The notes under the pieces are model-generated. The model ran no database searches. It worked only from the letters and a program-made list of their open reading frames with translations, and was not told the origin of the DNA. Positions 36,514 to 54,313 of a stretch of DNA of 64,000 nt are shown piece after piece. Where the stretch lies: contig NZ_LOAJ01000001.1 of the NCBI RefSeq assembly GCF_001542905.1, forward strand, positions 2,790,001 to 2,854,000, given 5' to 3'. A program made the position numbers and the translations under genes. This stretch comes from Halorubrum aethiopicum (lineage in GTDB: Archaea > Halobacteriota > Halobacteria > Halobacteriales > Haloferacaceae). Every line of letters starts with the position of its first letter. The stretch's first letter is position 1.

Positions 36514-37566
36514 ATGGCAGACGATCTCCGGGCGACGCTCGATCACGTCGGGGACCGGTTCAACCTGGGAGAGTACGAGATCGACGCGTACCTCGCGGTG
36601 TTGGAACACGGCGAGTTGACCGCGAGCGACATTGCCGATCGGACCGACATCCCGCAGCCGCGGGTGTACGACACGGTGCGGAGCCTCGCGGACCGCGGGC
36701 TCGTCGAGCTCCGCGAGTCGCGCCCGATGAAGATCGTGGCGGTCGACCCGGAGGACGCGTTCGACGAACTCCGCTCGTCGTTCGCGGAGATGGTCGACGA
36801 GCTCGAGGCGCGCTACACCGCGCCGACCCGCGAGACGGAGGCGGTGTCGCTCGTGAAGTCCCGCTCGACCATCCTGCGCTACCTCGAGGAGGTGATACGC
36901 GGCGCGGAGTACGAGCTCGCCGTCTCGCTCACGCCCGACCTCCTCCGTCGGTTCCGCGAGGATCTCGAAGAGAAGGTGGAAAACGGCGTGAGCGTCGAGC
37001 TCCTCGTGACGCCGGCCTCCCGCGCGCCGGACCCCGCGGAGTTCGACTACCTCGAGGTCGCGACCACCGCTCGCGCGCGCAGGGGTATCACCACGCCGGT
37101 CCTCGCGGTCGGCGACGGGGAGTACTCCGTGTACGCGACCCAGGACGCCCTCCGAGACGACCGCGAGCGGTACGGCGTCATCTTCAACCGCTCCGCGCTC
37201 GGCTTCCTCGTCTCCGGCTTCTTCGGGACGGTCCTGTGGACGACCGCGGAGACGCTCGCGGCCGACGGGAAGGCCCGCCCCTTCCCGCGGCGGTACGCCT
37301 CGATCCGGCGGGCGGTCAAGGACGTTCGCGAGTTCGACGGCGACGACTTCTACGCGACCGTCGAGGGTCGCGACATCGAGACGGGCAGGTCCGTCACGGT
37401 CCGGGGGCGCGTCGTCGACGTCGCGTTCGAGGACACGGAGGAGGTCGCCTCGCTCGTCGTCGAGACCGACGACGGCCGCGTCGAGATCGGCGGCCGCGTC
37501 GCCGCCCTGGAGGACGTCGAGGGTCAGGTGATCGTGATCGGCCGCGAGGAGCCCCCGGAGATCTGA
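36514..37566 (+). CDS. trmB: TrmB family transcriptional regulator of sugar metabolism
   Basis: A 350-residue protein with the N-terminal winged-helix domain ([60 protein letters not shown]). A coiled helix follows, then the sugar-binding domain, with [20 protein letters not shown] at its start and a C-terminal beta domain ([20 protein letters not shown]). This is full TrmB architecture and close to halobacterial TrmB as I remember it. That protein represses gluconeogenesis genes and activates glycolytic ones without glucose, binding TACT-N7/8-GAGTA. A perfect copy of that motif is found at 52376 in this window. The gene is probably monocistronic and converges on a YdjM-like gene. Confidence 0.85.
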
Positions 37567-43938: not shown

Positions 43939-45120
43939 TTACATGTCGCCGAACGCGCTCACGCCGCGGCCGGTCGAGGAGACCTTCGCGATCCACCGCG
44001 AGGCGATCGCCTTCTTCAGGAGTTTCGCCGGAGTGCCGCCGAACGTCTTGATCGGCATGCCGACCACGTCGTGGGCGACCGCCTCCTCGCCGACGGAGAT
44101 CACGGTGCCCTTGTCCTCGTGTTGCCACGACTGGAGCGGCGCGCCGCGGGCGGCCCGCGCGAGGTTCTCGCCGGCGACCTCCGCGGCCTGCCAGGCGGCC
44201 TGCGCGGTCGGCGGCGCGACATCGTCGCCGCCCTGGTCGATCAGGGCGGTGTCGCCGATGGCGAACACGCGGTCGTCGCTCGTGGTGAAGTCTGACTCCG
44301 CGAACACCCGGTTCGAGCGGTCGTCCTTCTCGATCTCGACCGCGTCGAGCTCCGCCTGACCGGTGATGCCGCCGGTCCAGATCAACACGTCGTACGTCAG
44401 CTCCTCGGGCTCCTCCTCGTCGCCGCCGCCGAGGTACACCGCGTCCTCGTCGGCCTTCGAGATGAAGTCGCCGGTGAGGATCTCCACGTCCGCGTCCACG
44501 AGCCGCTGGCGGAGCGCACCCTGTATCTGCGGGTCGTTGCCGGGGAACACCTCGTCTAACCCCTCGACGAGCTTGATGTCTATCGGGGCGCGGTGTTTGT
44601 CGCGGTACTCCGCGATCTCGCCGGCGGTCTGGATCCCCGAGAGCCCCGCGCCGCCGACGACGACGGTGGCGGGCTCGGAGCGGGTCGCGTTGCCGGCGGC
44701 CTCGCGGACGTCGTCGTGGATCGCCTGCGCGTCCGCGAGGCTCTTGAGCTGGTAGGCGTGTTCCTTCAGGCCGTCGATGCCGAAGAAGGCGGTGGTGGAG
44801 CCGATCGCCAGGAGCAGGTAGTCGTACTCGACCGTCTCCTCGCCGTCGGTCTCGACGACCTGCTCGTCGGTGTCGACGTCGACGACGCGGCCCTGAACGA
44901 ACTCGCCGTCCTCGGACATGATCTCGCCGACGGGGATGGTGATGCTGTCCTCGACGGCGGGGTTCCGGATCGCGCGGTGGACCTCGTGTAAGACGAGGTG
45001 GTAGTCGTGTTCGGAGATCCAGGTGAGCTCCGCCTCGCCCTCGCCGACCTCGTCCTCGAACGCCTTCACCGCCCCGGCACCGGCGTAGCCGGAGCCGACG
45101 ACGACGACCTGAGTTGTCAT
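43939..45120 (-). CDS. Type II NADH dehydrogenase-like FAD oxidoreductase
   Basis: A 393-residue two-dinucleotide-domain flavoprotein. The FAD loop is VVVVGSGYAGAGAVKAF at the N-terminus, the NAD loop is VVVGGAGLSGIQTAGEIAEY in the middle, and the second FAD contact is DDRVFAIGDTALIDQGG. It ends in a helical region (GTPAKLLKKAIASRWIAKVS) that can bind the membrane surface. It should pass electrons from NADH to menaquinone without pumping ions. Sulphide:quinone reductase is less likely because the required cysteine pair is not seen. The gene is monocistronic in appearance. Confidence 0.85.
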   Translation of the reverse strand: MTTQVVVVGSGYAGAGAVKAFEDEVGEGEAELTWISEHDYHLVLHEVHRAIRNPAVEDSITIPVGEIMSEDGEFVQGRVVDVDTDEQVVETDGEETVEYDYLLLAIGSTTAFFGIDGLKEHAYQLKSLADAQAIHDDVREAAGNATRSEPATVVVGGAGLSGIQTAGEIAEYRDKHRAPIDIKLVEGLDEVFPGNDPQIQGALRQRLVDADVEILTGDFISKADEDAVYLGGGDEEEPEELTYDVLIWTGGITGQAELDAVEIEKDDRSNRVFAESDFTTSDDRVFAIGDTALIDQGGDDVAPPTAQAAWQAAEVAGENLARAARGAPLQSWQHEDKGTVISVGEEAVAHDVVGMPIKTFGGTPAKLLKKAIASRWIAKVSSTGRGVSAFGDM

Positions 45121-45208
45121 GGATATCGATCCGCAGTGCGCGGGTAAAGACGCTTTGGAACCGCTCTCGCGTCGCGCCGGCGCGGGATCCCGACGGCCCC
45201 GCAGTCCG

Positions 45209-46051
45209 TCAGATCGAGAGCCCGGCGTGCCAGCGGTCGACCCCGGCCTCGCGTTTGACCTCGTCCATGCGCGCGAGCAGCTTCACGGCGAGGCTCGCGG
45301 TCTCGGCCGCCCGCGACTCCCCCTCGGTCCGGAACTCGCCGGTGACCCGGTTGGCGTACACCGAACACACCGCGCCCGCCCGCAGGCCGTACACGTTCGC
45401 GATCGTCAGGATCGCGGAGGCCTCCATCTCGATGTTCTTCACGTTCGCGTCCCGGAGTTCGGCGACCAGCGCGTCGGAGCCGGCGGCCTCGAACCCCTCG
45501 AAGCCCGGTCGACCCTGTCCGGCGTAAAACGAGTCCGCGCTCATCGTGATCCCGGCGTGGTAGTCGTAGCCGAGCCGCTCGGCGGCGGCGACGAGCGCGG
45601 AGACGACCTCCCCGTCGGCGGCCGCCGGGTAGTCCTCGCGGACGTACTCGTCGCTCGTCCCCTCCTGGCGGACCGCGCCGGTCGTGATCACCAGGTCGCC
45701 GACGGCCATGTCCGGCTGGATCGCGCCGCAGGAGCCGACCCGGATGAACGTGTCGACGCCGACGCGCGCCAGTTCCTCGACCGCGATGGCGGCGGACGGC
45801 GAGCCGATCCCGGTGGAGGTCACCGAGATCGGCGCGTCGTCGTAGCTCCCGGTCGCGGTGCGGTACTCGCGGTGGGCGGCGACCTCCTCGTGGTCGTCCC
45901 ACAGCGCGGTGATCTTGTCGACCCGCTCGGGGTTGCCGGGGAGGAGCACGGCGTCGGCGACGTCGCCCGCGGCGACCTCGAGGTGGTACTGGACCTCGTC
46001 GTTCGGGTCCTCGCTGCCGCCGGCCGCCGGCGCGTCGTCCTCGTCGGTCAT
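45209..46051 (-). CDS. Nucleoside phosphorylase (uridine phosphorylase-like)
   Basis: A 280-residue PNP/UDP-family enzyme that splits a nucleoside with phosphate into base and ribose-1-phosphate. Segments seen are DAVLLPGNPERVDKITALWD (phosphate site), TSTGIGSPSAAIAVEELARV, FIRVGSCGAIQPDMAVGDLV and the ribose-binding NIEMEASAILTIANVYGLRA. The closest pattern is uridine phosphorylase. It is the last gene of the nucleoside uptake and salvage cluster, 89 bases after the cytidine deaminase gene, so cytidine could be deaminated to uridine and then cleaved here. The first 20 residues are an acidic extension. Confidence 0.88.
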   Translation of the reverse strand: MTDEDDAPAAGGSEDPNDEVQYHLEVAAGDVADAVLLPGNPERVDKITALWDDHEEVAAHREYRTATGSYDDAPISVTSTGIGSPSAAIAVEELARVGVDTFIRVGSCGAIQPDMAVGDLVITTGAVRQEGTSDEYVREDYPAAADGEVVSALVAAAERLGYDYHAGITMSADSFYAGQGRPGFEGFEAAGSDALVAELRDANVKNIEMEASAILTIANVYGLRAGAVCSVYANRVTGEFRTEGESRAAETASLAVKLLARMDEVKREAGVDRWHAGLSI

Positions 46052-46140
46052 GTCCCCGACCTTCGCCGAGGCGTTTAAAAGGCGTTCCGACTCGGGAACG
46101 TCTCCCCGAGCGAGCCCGTGCGGACGGTCGCGCGCCGAGC

Positions 46141-46542
46141 TCAGCGGTTCCGCGCGTCGTCGAGCGTCCCCTGGCTTATCGTGTTCGGGAGCAGCTCGCC
46201 GAGGGTGTACTCGCTCGTCTCGCCGTCGCCCTCGTCACAGACCACGGGGAGGTCCTCGTCCGCGAACTCGGCGAGGCTCTGTCGGCACATCCCGCAGGGC
46301 GTGACGCCGTCGCGGACGCCCGAGGCGACGGCGAGCCGGTCGAACTCCCGGTGGCCGTTCTTCACCGCCTCCGCGAGCGCCACCTCCTCGGCGTGGAGGC
46401 TGTTGGAGTAGTTGGCGTTCTCGATGTTACAGCCGGTGTAGACGGTGCCGTCGGCGGTGCGGAGCGCCGCCCCGACGCGGTACTCGGAGTACGGGACGTG
46501 GGCGTCGGCGAGGGCGTCGCGGGCGGCCTCGATCAGGTCCAT
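46141..46542 (-). CDS. cdd: Cytidine deaminase
   Basis: A 133-residue zinc enzyme that converts cytidine or deoxycytidine to uridine or deoxyuridine. The zinc and catalytic residues are H50 and E52 in SLHAEEVALAEAV and C83 and C86 in TPCGMCRQSL. The first ligand is His, as in E. coli, rather than the Cys usual in short homotetrameric enzymes. CNIENANYSNSLHAEE is the substrate-binding segment. It sits between the GNAT gene (57 bases upstream) and the phosphorylase gene, in one transcription direction with the nucleoside ABC transporter. Confidence 0.93.
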   Translation of the reverse strand: MDLIEAARDALADAHVPYSEYRVGAALRTADGTVYTGCNIENANYSNSLHAEEVALAEAVKNGHREFDRLAVASGVRDGVTPCGMCRQSLAEFADEDLPVVCDEGDGETSEYTLGELLPNTISQGTLDDARNR

Positions 46543-46599
46543 GTCCGACCCTCGACCGGCGACCCGATAAGCGGTCGGGTCGACGCTCGAGCGACGACC

Positions 46600-47202
46600 T
46601 CACCGGCCGGTGTCGTACTTGTAGGTCGCCGTCTCCGGGTCTATCCCGAAGTCCTCGGCGGACTCGGTGGTCTCCTCCGATCCGCCCTCGTCCCCGTCGT
46701 CGGAGCCGCCGGCGTCCGCGTTCTTGAACGCCTCCCGCAGCTCCTCGGGCATCTCGAAGTCGTCGATGCCGACGCGGAGGCCGACCACGCCGCCGCCGAG
46801 GAACTCGCGTTTCTCCGTCAGCCGGTCCGAGAGCGCCGCCGGGAGGGCGTCGGTGTCGACCGTCTCGAAGCCGAACTGCGTCAGGTAGTCGGGCTGGTCG
46901 GTGAGCACGTACACCGTCTCGAACCCCTCGGCGGCCGCGGTGTCGACCAGCCGCTCGACGACGTGGGCTCCGACGCCGCGACCCCGCCACTCCGGGAGGA
47001 CGCCGATCCCGGTGAGCTCGATCCGTTCCGCGTCCTCGCCCCGGTGGAGTCGGAGCCGACCGAAGCCGGCCCGGTCGCCGGTCTCCTCGTCGACCGCGAT
47101 CACGTAGTCCCGTGACCGGAAGGCGACGTCGTCGAGCCCGAGCCGCTCGATCGCGTCCAGTAACCACGCCTCGTCACGGTTCTTGGCGTCGCGGACGTAC
47201 AT
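46600..47202 (-). CDS. GNAT-family N-acetyltransferase
   Basis: A 200-residue protein with the GNAT acetyl-CoA motif: ELTGIGVLPEWRGRGVGAHV (motif A with R-G-x-G) followed by VERLVDTAAAEGFETVYVLT. FGRLRLHRGEDAERI is the preceding strand. The C-terminal 60 residues (EAFKNADAGGSDDGDEGGSE, DPETATYKYDTGR) are acidic. The substrate is unknown. It sits inside the nucleoside cluster, between the last ABC permease gene (84 bases) and cdd. It may modify a nucleoside-derived compound or be an unrelated passenger. Confidence 0.8.
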   Translation of the reverse strand: MYVRDAKNRDEAWLLDAIERLGLDDVAFRSRDYVIAVDEETGDRAGFGRLRLHRGEDAERIELTGIGVLPEWRGRGVGAHVVERLVDTAAAEGFETVYVLTDQPDYLTQFGFETVDTDALPAALSDRLTEKREFLGGGVVGLRVGIDDFEMPEELREAFKNADAGGSDDGDEGGSEETTESAEDFGIDPETATYKYDTGR

Positions 47203-47286
47203 ACGCCGTCCTACGCGGCCGGGGATAAAAACGGTTTGCCGGCCGATCGTCGACGGTCGGGAGAGGAAAACCTCCCGGTACCGTCC

Positions 47287-48342
47287 TCAGTCTCCCTCGT
47301 CGTACGGCTCCCCGACCGCGGCGGGCACGCGCGTGTACCCGACCACGGCGAGGACGACGAGCACCGCGACGTACGGGAAGAGTCCGGTGATGCTTCCGGG
47401 CAGCGAGATGCCGATGGTCTGGAGCTGGATCTGGAGCATGTCCATCGCGCCGAACAGGAGCGACGCGCCGTAGGCACCGAGCGGGTTGTAGTTCCCGAAC
47501 AGGTACGCGACGATAGCGATCCAGCCGCGGCCGTCGACCATCGTGACGCCGGTCCCGGTGAATCCGCTGCCGATGCCGATCGACAGGACGGCCCCGCCGA
47601 GACCCGCCATGACGCCCGAGAAGATCACGGTCACGTAGCGGACACGGTTCACGTCGACTCCGGCCGTATCGAGCGCTTCGGGGTTCTCGCCGGCGGCCTG
47701 AACCCAGTAGCCGTAGCGGGTGCGGAACAGCACGACCCAGGCGACGACGGTCAGGACGATGGTGAGGATCACGAGCGGCGAGGCGTCGAAAAACAATCGA
47801 CCGAGGACCGGAACCTCGGAGAGGATCGGCACCGCCACGTTGTCGATGTTCGGAAGCGACGGGCTGGAGACTCCACCCCAGACGACGGTGGCGATGAACG
47901 GCCCGAACCCGAGACCGATGAACCACATCGCCAGGCCGGCGACGATCTGCTCCGCCTCGTATCGGATGAGCAGGACGGCGAAGACGACCGCCATCAGCCC
48001 GCAGACGACCGCGGCCGTCACCAGTCCGATCCAGAGGTCGCCCTGCGTGACGGGGTCGCTTCCGGACGTCACCCACGCCGAGACGGCACCGAGCAGCGCG
48101 CCGAATATCATGAACCCTTCCAGGCCGATGTTGAACACGCCGCTCTTCTCGGCGTAGAGACCGCCGATGGCGGCCAGCGCGATGGGCGTCGCGGCCTGGA
48201 GCGCGCGTTCGAGCGCTCCGACCGTCACGAGCTCCGACCCCGGTACGTCGGCGAAGAGGAACGCCGCCAGGGCGATCGCGAGGACGACGAGACTGCCGGG
48301 GAGGACGCGCCCGCCGTCAAACAGGTCACCGAGACGGGTCAT
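47287..48342 (-). CDS. Nucleoside ABC transporter permease (second permease)
   Basis: A 351-residue membrane protein of the BPD_transp_2 type used by BMP-family nucleoside importers. Segments are ATPIALAAIGGLYAEKSGVF, NIGLEGFMIFGALLGAVSAW and YWVQAAGENPEALDTAGVDV. About nine or ten helices are present. NIGLEG and GENPEAA-like motifs are the usual cytoplasmic coupling region for the ATPase. Its start overlaps the stop of the partner permease by four bases, so the two are produced together as the heterodimeric channel. Confidence 0.9.
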   Translation of the reverse strand: MTRLGDLFDGGRVLPGSLVVLAIALAAFLFADVPGSELVTVGALERALQAATPIALAAIGGLYAEKSGVFNIGLEGFMIFGALLGAVSAWVTSGSDPVTQGDLWIGLVTAAVVCGLMAVVFAVLLIRYEAEQIVAGLAMWFIGLGFGPFIATVVWGGVSSPSLPNIDNVAVPILSEVPVLGRLFFDASPLVILTIVLTVVAWVVLFRTRYGYWVQAAGENPEALDTAGVDVNRVRYVTVIFSGVMAGLGGAVLSIGIGSGFTGTGVTMVDGRGWIAIVAYLFGNYNPLGAYGASLLFGAMDMLQIQLQTIGISLPGSITGLFPYVAVLVVLAVVGYTRVPAAVGEPYDEGD

Positions 48343-49472
48343 TCGCCGTCACCTCCGAGGCTGGTGTACCGGCCGGCCGTGCGAAACAGCTCCGGCGCCG
48401 CGACGAACAGGACGATGAGACCGATGACCCCGTCGACCAGCTCGCTCGGCACGTCCAGCGTGAAGCCGATGTACTGGCCGCCGGCGTCGAGTCCCCCGAA
48501 CAGCAGGCCGGCGGGGACGACCCCGAGCGGATTGTTCGCTGCGAGGAGGCTCACCGCGATGGCGTCGAATCCGAACGTGGGGAAGGTGTTGGGGTCGCTG
48601 TAGTAGCCGAGGACCATCACCGCGAACAGCGCGCCGGCGAGGCCGGCGACCATCCCGGAGATGGTCATGGTGCTGACGACCATCCGGTTCGGATCGACGC
48701 CGGAGTACTTCGCGGCGGGCTCCTGATATCCGCTCGTGACCAGGTCGTAGCCGAACCCGGTTCGAGCCATCAACACGTAGACCGCGACGACCGTCAACAG
48801 CGCGATGGCCAACCCGATGACCGAGAACGACGGGCTGCCGAACGCGAAGCCGGGGAGGTCCACGTACGCCGGGAACTGCTCGGTGTTCGGGGCCGCCGCG
48901 CTCGGCGGGCGGAGGTATGCGTCCAACAGGAAGTAGACCACGCCGGAGGCGATGAAGTTCAACATGATGGTCGTGATGACCTCGTTCGCGCCCGCGTACG
49001 CCTTCATCACGCCGGGGAGCGCCGCGTACGCGCCGCCGGCGACCACGGCGGCCACGGCGGCTAGCGCCATCAGAACGACGCCGACGGCGACGCCGGCCGG
49101 GAGCAGCGGTGCCAGAAACAGGATCGTCAGGGTCGCGGCGAACCCGCCGACGACGAACTGGCCCTGGACGCCGATGTTGAACACGCCGGCGCGGAACGCG
49201 ACGGCGACGGCGACGCCGGTCAGGATGAGCATGGTCGACTGCCGGAGCATGAACGCGACGTTCGAGAGGCTCCCGACCGCCCCGTAGACGAGCGAGTAGA
49301 CGAACTCGCCGGCGTCGTATCCCGCGACGGCGACGATGCCCGCGCCGATGACGAACGCGAGCGTGGTCGAGACGACCGCGATGGCGATACGTTCGAGGAC
49401 GGACGCCGCGAGCATACGGTCGGCGATGCGGTCGGCGACCGCCCGGACGCCGGACGACTCGGCGTCGCTCAC
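48339..49472 (-). CDS. Nucleoside ABC transporter permease (first permease)
   Basis: A 377-residue membrane protein, partner of the permease downstream. Typical parts are FRAGVFNIGVQGQFVVGGFA, ANEVITTIMLNFIASGVVYF and SGYQEPAAKYSGVDPNRMVV, where the last is the ATPase-coupling loop (E-P-A-A). The pair corresponds to the YufP and YufQ / NupP and NupQ proteins of Gram-positive bacteria. Overlaps of four bases at both ends tie it to the ATPase gene upstream and the second permease gene downstream. Confidence 0.9.
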   Translation of the reverse strand: MSDAESSGVRAVADRIADRMLAASVLERIAIAVVSTTLAFVIGAGIVAVAGYDAGEFVYSLVYGAVGSLSNVAFMLRQSTMLILTGVAVAVAFRAGVFNIGVQGQFVVGGFAATLTILFLAPLLPAGVAVGVVLMALAAVAAVVAGGAYAALPGVMKAYAGANEVITTIMLNFIASGVVYFLLDAYLRPPSAAAPNTEQFPAYVDLPGFAFGSPSFSVIGLAIALLTVVAVYVLMARTGFGYDLVTSGYQEPAAKYSGVDPNRMVVSTMTISGMVAGLAGALFAVMVLGYYSDPNTFPTFGFDAIAVSLLAANNPLGVVPAGLLFGGLDAGGQYIGFTLDVPSELVDGVIGLIVLFVAAPELFRTAGRYTSLGGDGE

Positions 49473-51034
49473 GCGTGTTCCTCCGTGTCGACGACGACGG
49501 TATTTGGTCCGCTCAGCGTCTGCCCGGCCATCATGAGACCCAGGTCCTCCTCCGTCACGTCCTCGGGATCGACGACGTCGACGAACTCCCCCTCGTACAT
49601 GACCGCGATCCGGTCGGAGAGCTGTTTGATCTCGTCGAGCTTCGAGGAGACGAGCACGGTCGCGACGCCCTCGTCGCGTATCTCGCGGAGCCGCTCGTGG
49701 ATGAACTCGATGGAGCCGATGTCGACGCCCCGCGTCGGGTGCGCCGTCACGAGCAGCGACAGGTCACGCTCGAGCTCCCTGCCGACGATGAACTTCTGCT
49801 GGTTGCCGCCCGAGAGCGACTCGGCGGTCGCGTCGGGGTTCCGCGGTCGAACGTCGTACTCCTCGATGATCCGGTCGGCGTGGTCGCCGATCGCGCCCCA
49901 GTCGAGGAACGACCCGTCGGCGTACGGCTCGATGGTCTGATTTCCCAACAGCGCGTTTCTGACGAGGCTGTACTCCTGGACCAGCCCCTCCACCGTCCGG
50001 TCGCCCGGAACGTACGCGATGCCGGACTCGATCCGGTCGCGGCGGCTCGCCTCCGTGATCTCCTCGCCGAACAGCGAGACGGTGCCGTTCTCGGCGTAGC
50101 GCATTCCGGTGACGGCCTCGATGAGTTCCTGCTGGCCGTTCCCTTCCACGCCGGCGATGCCCAGGATCTCGCCCTCGCGAACGGCGAGGCTCACGTCCCG
50201 GACCTGTCGGAGCCCACGTTCGTCCTCGACGGCGAGGCCGTCGACGGAGAGGGCCACGTCACCCGGCGATCCGTCCCGCGGCTCCACGTCGAACAGCACC
50301 TCGCGGCCGACCATCATCCGTGCGAGCTCGTTCCGCGTGGTCCCGTCGGCCTCGACCGTGCCGACGGCCGCTCCATCCCTGAGGACGGTGATGCGGTCGG
50401 CCGCTCCCATCGCCTCGTCCAGCTTGTGGGTGATGAAGATGATCGACCGGCCGTCGGCGGTGAGCTCCTCCATCACGTCGAACAGGCCCTCGATCTCCTG
50501 TGGCGTCAGGACCGCCGTCGGCTCGTCGAAGATGAGCGTCTCCGCGCCGCGATAGAGGCTCTTGACGATCTCGACGTGCTGTTGTATCCCCAAGCCGAGC
50601 TCCTCGACTCTGGTGTCGAGGTGCTCGTCGACCGAGAAGCCGTAGGTGTCGCAGATCTCCGCGACGCGTTCGCGGGCACTGCTGTCGTCGACGAGTCCGC
50701 GCTTCGACGGTTCGTGACCGAGGACGATGTTCTGGAGGACCGTCATGGTGTCCACGAGCTGGAAGTGCTGGTGGATCATGCCGATCCCGGTGCCGATGGC
50801 GTCCCGCGGGGAGTCGAACGCCCGCGGTTGCCCGTCGACGTTCACCGTCCCCTCGTCGGGATCGTACAGGCCGTACAGGACCTTCATCAGCGTCGTCTTC
50901 CCCGCGCCGTTCTCGCCGATCACGGCGTGGACCGACCCACGCTCCAAGGCCAGGTCGACGGCATCGTTGGCGACGACGTCGCCGAACCGTTTCGTGATGC
51001 TGGTGAGTTCGACCGCGTACGTGTCGTCCGTCAT
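49469..51034 (-). CDS. Nucleoside ABC transporter ATPase (duplicated NBD)
   Basis: A 521-residue protein with two fused nucleotide-binding domains, as in sugar and nucleoside importers. The first has Walker A GENGAGKTTLMKVLYGLYDP, Q-loop HQHFQLVDTMTV and Walker B ETLIFDEPTAVLTPQEI. The second has a degenerate P-loop (GIAGVEGNGQQELIEAVTGM), the signature ESLSGGNQQKFIVGREL and SLLVTAHPTRGVDIGSIEFI in place of a clear Walker B glutamate. The second site may therefore be weak. The gene follows the BMP lipoprotein gene by 66 bases and overlaps the first permease gene by four. Confidence 0.93.
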   Translation of the reverse strand: MTDDTYAVELTSITKRFGDVVANDAVDLALERGSVHAVIGENGAGKTTLMKVLYGLYDPDEGTVNVDGQPRAFDSPRDAIGTGIGMIHQHFQLVDTMTVLQNIVLGHEPSKRGLVDDSSARERVAEICDTYGFSVDEHLDTRVEELGLGIQQHVEIVKSLYRGAETLIFDEPTAVLTPQEIEGLFDVMEELTADGRSIIFITHKLDEAMGAADRITVLRDGAAVGTVEADGTTRNELARMMVGREVLFDVEPRDGSPGDVALSVDGLAVEDERGLRQVRDVSLAVREGEILGIAGVEGNGQQELIEAVTGMRYAENGTVSLFGEEITEASRRDRIESGIAYVPGDRTVEGLVQEYSLVRNALLGNQTIEPYADGSFLDWGAIGDHADRIIEEYDVRPRNPDATAESLSGGNQQKFIVGRELERDLSLLVTAHPTRGVDIGSIEFIHERLREIRDEGVATVLVSSKLDEIKQLSDRIAVMYEGEFVDVVDPEDVTEEDLGLMMAGQTLSGPNTVVVDTEEHA

Positions 51035-51100
51035 TTCGTGTGCGTCATACAGTGTTCTCGGGGGTCGTGGTGAAAATACTACGAGGAGTCATGCCCTCGG

Positions 51101-52360
51101 TCAGCAGCCGCCGGCGCTACACGGAACCGTAATGTCGCCGTCGATGATTCCCTGCTTGCTCTCCTCGAGGTTCTGGGTGACGACGTCGGGGAGCTGGTCG
51201 CCGACGGTGTCGCCGAGGACGACCTTGACGGCGTCCTCCTCGAGACCGAGCACGTTCGCGCCCTGAACCGCCGACCAGTTATCCTGGACGACGGCCTCGG
51301 CGACCTCGTAGGTCCCCTCGTTGATGTACTTCACCGCCGACCCCATGATCACGTCGCTGTAGTCGGGGAGCGTCACGGACTGGTCCGCGTCGACCCCGAC
51401 GGCGAAGCGGTTCGCGTCCTGTGCGGCCTGGAAGACGCCCTGCCCGGCCGCGGCGGCGGCGTGGTAGACGATGTCCGCGCCCGCGTCGTACTGCGACGTG
51501 GCGATGTTGTTGGCCGTCTGGGTGTCGGTGTAGTTGCCGATGTACCCGACCCGGACCTCCATCTCGTCGTCGACCCACTGTGCGCCCGCTCGGTAGGCCC
51601 GCTCGAAGGCGTTGATGAGCGACCCGTCGACGCCGCCGACGAAGCCGATCACCTTGTCGTCGGGAGTGAGCGTGTTCCCCTCGTGGGAGAGTTCGCGCGT
51701 GGTCATCGTCGCCGCCAGGACGCCCGCCTGGAAGGACATCTCGTGGTTCGCCCACGTGTACCCCGCGACGTTCGGCTGATCGACGGAGGCGTTGATCAGC
51801 ATCCAGTTCTGATCGGGGTACTCCTCGGCGTTCGTCTGGAGCGCCTGCGTGTGGTTGTAGCTGACGAGGACGATGAGGTCGTAGTCCGGGTCGCCGCTCT
51901 CGGCCAGCTGCGACTGGACGGTCTGATAGTTCGACTGGTTGGTCTCCTCGACCTGCTGTATCTCGATATCGTACTCCTCGGCGGCCGACTCCAGGCCCTG
52001 GAGCGCCAGGTCGTTGAACGCCTGATCGCCGAACCCGGCCGGACTGGAGACGATGGCGACGTTGGTCGTCCCACCGGAGCCGTCCGACCCTCCCGAGTCG
52101 GATTCGGAGTTCGTATCGGATCCCGAGCCGGAGTCGGAATCCGAGTCAGAGTCGGAATCCGAGTCAGAGTCGGAATCGGACCCGGAATCAGAATCCGACC
52201 CGGATCCGGAGCCCCCGTCGTCGGTCAAACATCCAGCCAGCCCGGCCACGCCGACGAGCCCCGCCCCCGTCCTCAGGACGTCCCGTCGCCGCGGAACCCC
52301 GTCGCTCGTCTCGCCCGTCGTGTCGGCCTCAGACCTTTCGCGTGTATTCGTATCGACCAT
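51101..52360 (-). CDS. BMP-family nucleoside-binding lipoprotein
   Basis: A 419-residue Tat lipoprotein and first gene of the uptake operon. The N-terminus has RRRDVLRTGAGLVGVAGLAG-C (twin arginine and lipobox). A linker of about 40 residues made almost only of Ser, Asp and Gly follows (SGSDSDSGSDSDSDSDSDSD). The binding domain is of the PnrA/BmpA/Med type: NVAIVSSPAGFGDQAFNDLA, SYNHTQALQTNAEEYPDQNW, KVIGFVGGVDGSLINAFERA and the ligand-site AVGVDADQSVTLPDYSDVIM. Such proteins bind purine or pyrimidine nucleosides. The ATG at 52360 fits the TATA box at 52395-52400; the ORF extends upstream without family sequence. Confidence 0.92.
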   Translation of the reverse strand: MVDTNTRERSEADTTGETSDGVPRRRDVLRTGAGLVGVAGLAGCLTDDGGSGSGSDSDSGSDSDSDSDSDSDSDSDSGSGSDTNSESDSGGSDGSGGTTNVAIVSSPAGFGDQAFNDLALQGLESAAEEYDIEIQQVEETNQSNYQTVQSQLAESGDPDYDLIVLVSYNHTQALQTNAEEYPDQNWMLINASVDQPNVAGYTWANHEMSFQAGVLAATMTTRELSHEGNTLTPDDKVIGFVGGVDGSLINAFERAYRAGAQWVDDEMEVRVGYIGNYTDTQTANNIATSQYDAGADIVYHAAAAAGQGVFQAAQDANRFAVGVDADQSVTLPDYSDVIMGSAVKYINEGTYEVAEAVVQDNWSAVQGANVLGLEEDAVKVVLGDTVGDQLPDVVTQNLEESKQGIIDGDITVPCSAGGC

Positions 52361-52375
52361 GATCGTTTTCCGACT

Positions 52376-52391
52376 TACTCTCTTTCGAGTA
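52376..52391 (-). promoter_or_regulatory. TrmB-type operator TACT-N7-GAGTA at the nucleoside-operon promoter
   Basis: TACTCTCTTTCGAGTA matches the Halobacterium TrmB recognition motif without mismatch and is nearly palindromic (TACTC-N6-GAGTA). It lies between the TATA box (52395-52400) and the start codon (52360), a position where TrmB is reported to repress. A trmB gene is present at 36514. The site is seen directly; the binding protein is inferred. Confidence 0.6.
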
Positions 52392-52394
52392 CCA

Positions 52395-52400
52395 TTATAA
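52395..52400 (-). promoter_or_regulatory. TATA box of the nucleoside uptake operon
   Basis: TTATAA on the minus strand lies 35-40 bases before the lipoprotein ATG and predicts transcription start near 52370, within or next to the TACT-N7-GAGTA site. Confidence 0.55.
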
Positions 52401-52682
52401 GCGTTGGCCATGATTACTGATACGATCGGTCCTGGACGGAACGTGTGAACTACTTCTTTCTCACAGATTTCGGGCATCATCCGTCGGCTGAGGGCGATAC
52501 GTTGGCATTTAGCACGGACTCCGACGCGCCACACGCACCCGTGATGGTTATTACACGAAACGTTACACGAACCCACAGAGCGGTTCACGTTCCCGTCGGG
52601 ACGTACCGTTCGGCCGAACGTTTCGCGACCGACGCGGCGTTCGCGGCGCTCTCGGAACGGTCCCACCTCTAGGGGGCGATGC
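52401..52682. other. Upstream region of the nucleoside operon with short repeats
   Basis: This 282-base stretch lies between the promoter and the metallo-hydrolase gene stop. It holds two arms TGTGA (52444-52448) and TCACA (52461-52465), a possible activator site about 45-65 bases upstream of the TATA box. It also has two tandem 12-base near-copies of TTACACGAAACG at 52551-52574. An ORF of 75 codons across it lacks haloarchaeal codon bias in its first half and is not called. Confidence 0.4.
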
Positions 52683-53414
52683 TCAACCGTCGACGGACCG
52701 CTCGTCGAGCGCGACCGGGATCGATCGGGCGGCGACGTCGGCGGCGAACGCCTCGGCGTCCGCCTCCAGGTCGTCGAAGGCGTCGTAGTGGATCGGCACG
52801 ACGAGATCCGGAGCCATGCGTTCGGCGAGGTCCGCGGCGGCGTGACGGTCGGAGACGATCCCGCCGCCGCCGATGTTCGCGAGGAGGACGCTCACGTCGA
52901 GTTCGGCGAGCGCGTCGAGCGCGTCGCCGTCGCCGGGCCAGAGCACGGTCCGGTCCCCGACGGAGAACAGGAAACCGCAGCCGAAGCCCTCCGGGTGCGG
53001 GACCGTCCCGTCGTCGCTCGCGCAGGGGCCGTCCGGCTCGTTGTGCGCGGCCACCGTCCAGACGGGGACCGTCCCGTCGTCGGTCTCGACATCGACGCGG
53101 GCCTCGTCGTCGACGCGGACCACGTCGTAGTCGGCTGCGAGCGCCTCGATCGGCTCCACGTCGCGGCCGATCCGGTCGGGCTCGACGCCCTCGTAGATCA
53201 CGAGCGTCGCGTCCGCGTCGGCGACGGAGCGGATCCCCGCGGGGTCGTAGTGGTGGTCGTGGGTCACGAGGACGACGTCGCCGTCGCGGGCCCAGTAGTC
53301 GTCGAGGACGCCGTATCGACCGGGGTCCGTGTACACCACCGGGCCGCCGGCGGAGACGCGGGCGGTCGCGTAGCCGAGCCACTCGACGGCGAGGTCGTCG
53401 TATCTGACGGTCAT
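52683..53414 (-). CDS. MBL-fold metal-dependent hydrolase (UlaG-like)
   Basis: A 243-residue metallo-beta-lactamase-fold protein. It starts with VEWLGYATARVSAGGPVVYT, then DVVLVTHDHHYDPAGIRSV, where the H-x-H/D-H motif is slightly altered (THDHHYD). It continues with VLWPGDGDALDALAELDVSV and LVVPIHYDAFDDLEADAEAF. It resembles the L-ascorbate-6-phosphate lactonase / UPF0173 branch. The substrate is unknown. I begin at MTVRYDDLAVEW, which gives the standard first strand. The gene upstream on the same strand starts its stop 35 bases away, so they may be co-transcribed. Confidence 0.83.
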   Translation of the reverse strand: MTVRYDDLAVEWLGYATARVSAGGPVVYTDPGRYGVLDDYWARDGDVVLVTHDHHYDPAGIRSVADADATLVIYEGVEPDRIGRDVEPIEALAADYDVVRVDDEARVDVETDDGTVPVWTVAAHNEPDGPCASDDGTVPHPEGFGCGFLFSVGDRTVLWPGDGDALDALAELDVSVLLANIGGGGIVSDRHAAADLAERMAPDLVVPIHYDAFDDLEADAEAFAADVAARSIPVALDERSVDG

Positions 53415-53449
53415 GTCGCGTGATCCGGTCGGTCTCCCCTTGAGCGTGG

Positions 53450-54313
53450 CTATCCGTCCTCGGCCCCGTCGCCGACGACGAGCTCCCACGCCCCCTCGAC
53501 GCCGGCCGCCGGACCGACGACGTGTTCGGGGACGAGCGGCATCGGGACGGGCACGAACCCGGCGGCGCGCATCGCCGCGAAGCCGCTCGCGGTCTCGACG
53601 ACAGTCCCGTCGTCGCCGCGACGCACGCGGAACCGCTTGTCCGCCGGGTCTCGACGGTAGACGTACGGGAACGCTCCGGCCGGCGGGGTTCGGAGGCTCT
53701 CCACGCCGCCGAGCACCGCCACCACCCGATCGTCGACCTCACAGACCAGTCGCGGGACGCTCGGTCGACCGTCCGGACCGGTCGACGCCGCGTCGACGCC
53801 GCCGACGGACGGGACCGGTCCCGCCGGCGTGTCCGTCTCGCGCCAGCGGAACGTCGGGTCGGCGTCCGATCCCCGCGAGACGCCGTCGGGGCCGTCGAGG
53901 TCGTCGACGCGGACGCAGGCGTATCCCCTGGCGGCTCCGGGGATCGATCCGGTGTCGACGGGGATCCGGTCGGGTCCCTCGTGGAACGTCCGGCGGCCGT
54001 CCGCCTCGTCGACGAGCAGCGGCGGGTCCGTGAGCAGCGACCGAACCGCGGACGCGACGCCGTCGTCCGTGACGACGAACAGGGCGCGACGGTCGCGTTC
54101 GAGCGCGTGCCCGAGTCGGGAGGCGACGGTCGTCGGCGTCGCGTCGGCGTCGGTGAGCGGTTCGATCCCGAAGCGCTCCTCGTCCCGCACAGCGACCGCC
54201 GGCGGCTCCGCTCGGGTCCCCGGACGGGTGACGTCGTATCCGCGCGCCGCGAGGCGGCTCGCCGCCGCCTCCGTGAGCCGCCGCCGCGCCGCGTCGCCGA
54301 GGGGATCGGGCAT
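53450..54313 (-). CDS. Haloarchaeal conserved protein, unknown function
   Basis: A 287-residue acidic soluble protein. An N-terminal helical part (RRRLTEAAASRLAARGYDVT) leads into an alpha/beta domain with RLGHALERDRRALFVVTDDG and LLTDPPLLVDEADGRRTFHE. A proline- and glycine-rich middle follows, then RLVCEVDDRVVAVLGGVESL and PYVYRRDPADKRFRVRRGDD. No catalytic motif, membrane helix or metal site is obvious. It lies between the DNA ligase gene (63 bases) and the metallo-hydrolase gene (35 bases) in the same direction. I do not recognise the family. Confidence 0.65.
   Translation of the reverse strand: MPDPLGDAARRRLTEAAASRLAARGYDVTRPGTRAEPPAVAVRDEERFGIEPLTDADATPTTVASRLGHALERDRRALFVVTDDGVASAVRSLLTDPPLLVDEADGRRTFHEGPDRIPVDTGSIPGAARGYACVRVDDLDGPDGVSRGSDADPTFRWRETDTPAGPVPSVGGVDAASTGPDGRPSVPRLVCEVDDRVVAVLGGVESLRTPPAGAFPYVYRRDPADKRFRVRRGDDGTVVETASGFAAMRAAGFVPVPMPLVPEHVVGPAAGVEGAWELVVGDGAEDG

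Follow-up and report, generated by a model that had tools for sequence, protein, structure and literature searches.

Organization of the transporter locus

The window analyzed here, a 64-kb stretch of Halorubrum aethiopicum DNA, harbors a four-gene ABC transporter operon that opens with a BMP-family lipoprotein gene (bmp), together with neighboring genes that include two for nucleoside salvage and, about 15 kb from a palindrome in the bmp promoter, a trmB gene. The features considered below are as follows.

36514..37566, plus strand: trmB, the proposed regulator (NF047392, 608.7 bits; PF01978 and PF11495)
45209..46051, minus strand: uridine phosphorylase-like nucleoside phosphorylase, a neighbor with its own promoter-like box (PF01048; TIGR01718 at 263.4 bits, just below the cut-off of 280.3)
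46141..46542, minus strand: cytidine deaminase, a neighbor with its own promoter-like box (TIGR01354, above cut-off)
46600..47202, minus strand: GNAT acetyltransferase, a neighbor (Pfam PF00583)
47203..47286, minus strand: intergenic stretch ahead of the GNAT gene, containing the TATA-like box CCGTTTTTATCC that is kept in H. cibi; proposed separate salvage-side promoter
47287..48342, minus strand: ABC permease 2, which closes the conserved four-gene operon (Pfam PF02653)
48339..49472, minus strand: ABC permease 1 (Pfam PF02653)
49469..51034, minus strand: ABC transporter ATPase with two ABC domains (Pfam PF00005, two stretches)
51101..52360, minus strand: BMP/PnrA-like substrate-binding lipoprotein, which opens the operon (Pfam PF02608, 157.5 bits; solved BMP-family relatives)
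52376..52391, no strand assigned: proposed TrmB operator TACTC-N6-GAGTA (pattern search; matrix maximum 17.6 bits, shuffle p 0.0005)
52394..52400, minus strand: TATA box TTATAAT of the bmp promoter (from the sequence; lines up with that of the orthologues in Haloferax and Halorubrum)

The composition of a BMP/PnrA-type importer is complete, comprising a BMP binding protein, a double ATPase and two permeases, and the order of these four genes is common to Haloferax and other Halorubrum. Membership of this family and the proximity of a cytidine deaminase and a nucleoside phosphorylase point to a nucleoside as the probable substrate; related importers are also annotated for vitamin B6, on weak matches below cut-off. 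The BMP lipoprotein itself carries a long Ser-Asp repeat linker after the lipobox (52100-52215), which by composition resembles the serine-aspartate repeats of surface proteins.

The boundary between the transporter and the salvage genes is of particular relevance, as the preliminary description had treated them as one uptake and salvage operon. The gaps before the GNAT, cytidine deaminase and phosphorylase genes measure 84, 57 and 89 bp, respectively, and each contains a TATA-like box that is kept in H. cibi. The genes flanking the transporter share 86-97% identity with their counterparts in H. cibi, H. aquaticum and Halobellus captivus, whereas the transporter between them reaches only 53-69% identity and is inverted in those genomes. 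Because of these separate boxes and of the contrast in identity between flanks and transporter, the salvage genes are read as an independent neighbor and the transporter of the window resembles an exchanged cassette that carries a promoter of its own. Within the compared stretch from 43939 to 53489, the part between the GNAT gene and a metallo-hydrolase gene has the appearance of an in-place exchange of the transporter cassette. Salvage genes were not found within the available flanks of the Haloferax-type operon, and in relatives they do not lie downstream of this transporter. We therefore regard the joint operon as doubtful and tentatively assign the palindrome to the four-gene transporter operon, with co-transcription of the GNAT, cytidine deaminase and phosphorylase genes by read-through being possible.

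A perfect palindrome in the core promoter of bmp

The defining feature of the bmp promoter is a perfect palindrome, TACTC-N6-GAGTA (10/10), that spans 52376-52391 and lies 15 nt from the bmp start codon (ATG at 52360), such that the order on the minus strand is AACGCTTATAATGG-TACTCGAAAGAGAGTA-AGTCGGAAAACGATC-ATG. As the site is palindromic, TACT-N7-GAGTA, the pattern that the preliminary description had placed between the TATA box and the start of bmp, can be read on both strands at these positions, and it occurs at no other place in the window, where dinucleotide shuffles predict 0.03 matches. The end coordinate given earlier, 52400, takes in the TATA box TTATAAT besides the palindrome. With the TATA box centered near 52397 and the usual archaeal spacing, bmp transcription would start near 52370 and the palindrome would cover about -6 to -21. 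In Hbt. salinarum, TrmB recognizes TACT-N7-8-GAGTA, with sites upstream of the promoter activating and downstream sites repressing (PMC4158304). By this rule the bmp palindrome, positioned downstream of the TATA box and ahead of the start codon, occupies a repressor position, in agreement with the first assessment of the site.

Specificity of the motif

A scan of the genome for TACT-N7/8-GAGTA, proposed at the outset as a check, left this loose pattern at chance level. The loose pattern gave nine forward and eight reverse matches against eight and eight for the reversed control, with 8 of 13 matching loci falling within called genes, and was rejected as stand-alone evidence since its matches stay at the control level. 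The strict palindrome is more informative, and the case for an operator rests on this palindrome, on where it lies and on its partial conservation.

An independent view of the motif was provided by gapII and ppsA, both of which are bound by TrmB in Haloarcula and Halobacterium (PMC10817205). In many haloarchaeal genomes these two genes are preceded by TACTC-N6-GAGTA/T at a constant position ahead of a TATA-like box, and a matrix was built from 42 such gapII/ppsA promoter sites of other haloarchaea. The site at 52376-52391 reaches the maximum of this matrix, 17.6 bits, a score to be read with the preselection of the 42 sites at no more than two mismatches, by which the matrix leans to the consensus. 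H. aethiopicum has a site of this type before its own ppsA and, more weakly, before gapII. Genome-wide, WACTC-N6-GAGTW occurs 23 times, 19 of them within called genes; the remaining four are in the promoters of ppsA and bmp, on a small contig (C3) and at a further, ambiguous position. On the chromosome, the ambiguous site apart, the intergenic palindrome is thus confined to a known TrmB target, ppsA, and to bmp. A hand estimate from base composition and intergenic fraction puts the chance expectation per genome at 0.16 perfect and 0.63 WACTC-type intergenic palindromes. The promoter of the genome's own BMP paralogue (G000:C1:2246204-2247184) is without the operator. Palindromes with one mismatch were rejected as a predictor of the regulon, given that 44 of the 60 examined are intragenic; many of the others lie in poorly called regions.

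Conservation among orthologous promoters

The region aligns with the bmp promoter in the closest orthologues (77-84% protein identity). In Haloferax marisrubri, denitrificans and sulfurifontis the arrangement is TATA-TACTC-N6-GAGTG-16 nt-ATG, a 9/10 palindrome at the homologous position that scores 14.9 bits on the 42-site matrix (shuffle p 0.001-0.002); these three species are closely related and hence count as one lineage. Other Halorubrum orthologues (83-84% protein identity) keep TACTC or TATTC while the second half has decayed, which leaves a half-site at most, with non-significant matrix scores, and most of the remaining, more distant orthologous promoters are without the palindrome. The distant transporter type of H. 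cibi, H. aquaticum and Halobellus captivus has a weaker site (10.5 bits), located on the upstream side of the TATA box. Two genomes of another family (G078 and G086) also had palindrome-like sites close to the start.

In 392 genomes, the combination of a TATA-like box with TACTC-N6-GAGT behind it was tallied by hand at approximately 64 sites versus approximately 39 for the reversed control. Four of these sites are the orthologous bmp promoter, so that the combination recurs before the orthologous gene in two genera, and among the 30 loci read only those four could be linked with a conserved gene whose start follows the site at 15-17 nt. In two of these cases the scripted start call was overlapping and out of frame, and the true ATG lies at 16 nt. 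The erosion of the palindrome in other Halorubrum and its absence from most distant orthologues count against TrmB control, which at the bmp promoter is considered likely but lineage-specific.

TrmB as the candidate regulator

The preliminary description had located a full-length trmB at 36514-37566, and the search results uphold this identification: the encoded protein scores 608.7 bits against the NCBIfam equivalog NF047392 (cut-off 500), and its residues Y52, D53, G327 and E333 align with Y50, D51, G320 and E326 in the structure of Pyrococcus furiosus TrmB (3qph), where the Y/D pair contacts DNA and the G/E pair binds sugar (PMC4158304). Judged by sequence, the gene is a true haloarchaeal TrmB. 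The genome also encodes two more proteins with PF11495, the TrmB sugar-binding domain (G000:C1:1208782-1209534 and G000:C1:1709980-1710702).

The reading we favor, and regard as probable though well short of certain, is that the palindrome is an operator for haloarchaeal TrmB, which in its sugar-free form represses the four-gene nucleoside-type importer and releases it when sugar is present. Sugar-free TrmB would bind just downstream of the TATA box and, once bound, would hinder recruitment of the polymerase at the bmp promoter, leaving the importer repressed at scarce glucose and released with sugar available. Binding by TrmB, the repressing sign and the sugar response at this promoter are all inferred from the site and from work on relatives. 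Har. hispanica TrmB binds mainly in the absence of glucose (PMC10817205); because a downstream site represses, import is predicted to be off when sugar is short. Such repression would fit three reported responses, namely the repression of a sugar MFS transporter by Har. hispanica TrmB without glucose (PMC10817205), the increase in pentose catabolic genes when trmB is deleted in Haloarcula and glucose is absent, and, in Halobacterium, a suppression of purine synthesis that depends on TrmB. The bmp promoter is likely a new target of a known regulator.

Comparison with characterized systems places this candidate within a familiar framework. It shares with Halobacterium salinarum TrmB (VNG1451C) the haloarchaeal equivalog, the TACT-N7-8-GAGTA motif and the downstream repressor geometry (PMC4158304, PMC3794607), whereas the targets reported in Halobacterium serve central carbon, amino acid, cofactor and purine synthesis and the target here is a nucleoside-type ABC importer. 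The palindromic motif is likewise that of Haloarcula hispanica TrmB (HAH_1548), found there at gapII, ppsA and fbp; however, none of the 15 ChIP-seq binding sites of that protein is at a nucleoside transporter (PMC10817205), and in the genes it represses the motif lies over the BRE and not, as here, downstream of the TATA box. Repression of an ABC importer through a core-promoter palindrome has a precedent in P. furiosus TrmB at the trehalose/maltose ABC operon (PMC4158304), although the palindrome there is TACT-N3-AGTA, trmB is encoded beside the importer genes rather than about 15 kb away, and the transported sugars are the inducers.

Alternative explanations

The palindrome could instead be the operator of another regulator, either one of the other PF11495 proteins or an unrelated repressor, perhaps nucleoside-responsive. 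Besides the presence of these two proteins, this explanation draws on Halorussus and related genomes (L017, L021, L023 and L198), whose orthologous promoters carry a different palindrome-like sequence, TTTAC...GTAAA, at the TATA box or immediately behind it; this is possibly another operator, and it would imply that operators change at the bmp promoter. We nonetheless consider a different regulator rather unlikely, as the motif equals that of ppsA and gapII promoters in many haloarchaea and the transporter operon is without any regulator gene. OxsR, a characterized TrmB-domain regulator, was rejected as the binder on the grounds that its motif is CG-rich.

A palindrome that arose by chance and is bound by no regulator, its likeness to Haloferax being partly coincidence or core promoter sequence, would agree with the chance-level frequency of the loose motif, the mostly intragenic one-mismatch palindromes and the many orthologues that have no site. 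It is made improbable by a 10/10 match placed exactly between TATA box and start and by the aligned 9/10 palindrome in the Haloferax lineage.

Very unlikely, finally, is the reading first proposed, in which TrmB switches uptake and salvage as a joint operon and the ribose of nucleosides supplies carbon at sugar shortage. Although a ribose-1,5-bisphosphate isomerase homologue (G000:C1:324423-325322; TIGR00511, 479 bits), an enzyme of the haloarchaeal route from nucleoside ribose to central carbon (PMC9700705), means that a ribose route may exist, each salvage gene is preceded by its own promoter-like box and in relatives lies away from this type of transporter, no palindrome with one mismatch or fewer among those listed lies near the isomerase gene, and glucose-free binding at a downstream site would shut import at sugar shortage and open it with sugar.

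Possible rewiring of the bmp promoter

Control of the bmp operon by TrmB, if real, would extend the regulon of this model archaeal metabolic regulator to nucleoside uptake, and the predicted sign, with import off at sugar shortage, is both counter-intuitive and testable. A wider proposal, which we advance tentatively and with some doubt, is that some haloarchaea have connected nucleoside import to the TrmB circuit in a sense opposite to carbon catabolite repression, sugar being permissive, with exchange of the transporter cassette accompanied by gain, erosion or replacement of the operator between sister lineages. The orthologous bmp promoters, which have all, half or none of the palindrome, offer a natural series for the study of archaeal regulon rewiring.

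Related sequences were also observed away from bmp. The intergenic site on the smallest contig of the H. aethiopicum genome reads AACTC-N6-GAGTT (G000:C3:48020-48035) and is possibly a further TrmB-like site, and in three genomes of another haloarchaeal genus (L271, L272 and L273) the sequence TTATAGTATTACTCTGAGG(A/G)GAGT is kept approximately 77 nt before a 132-aa open frame.
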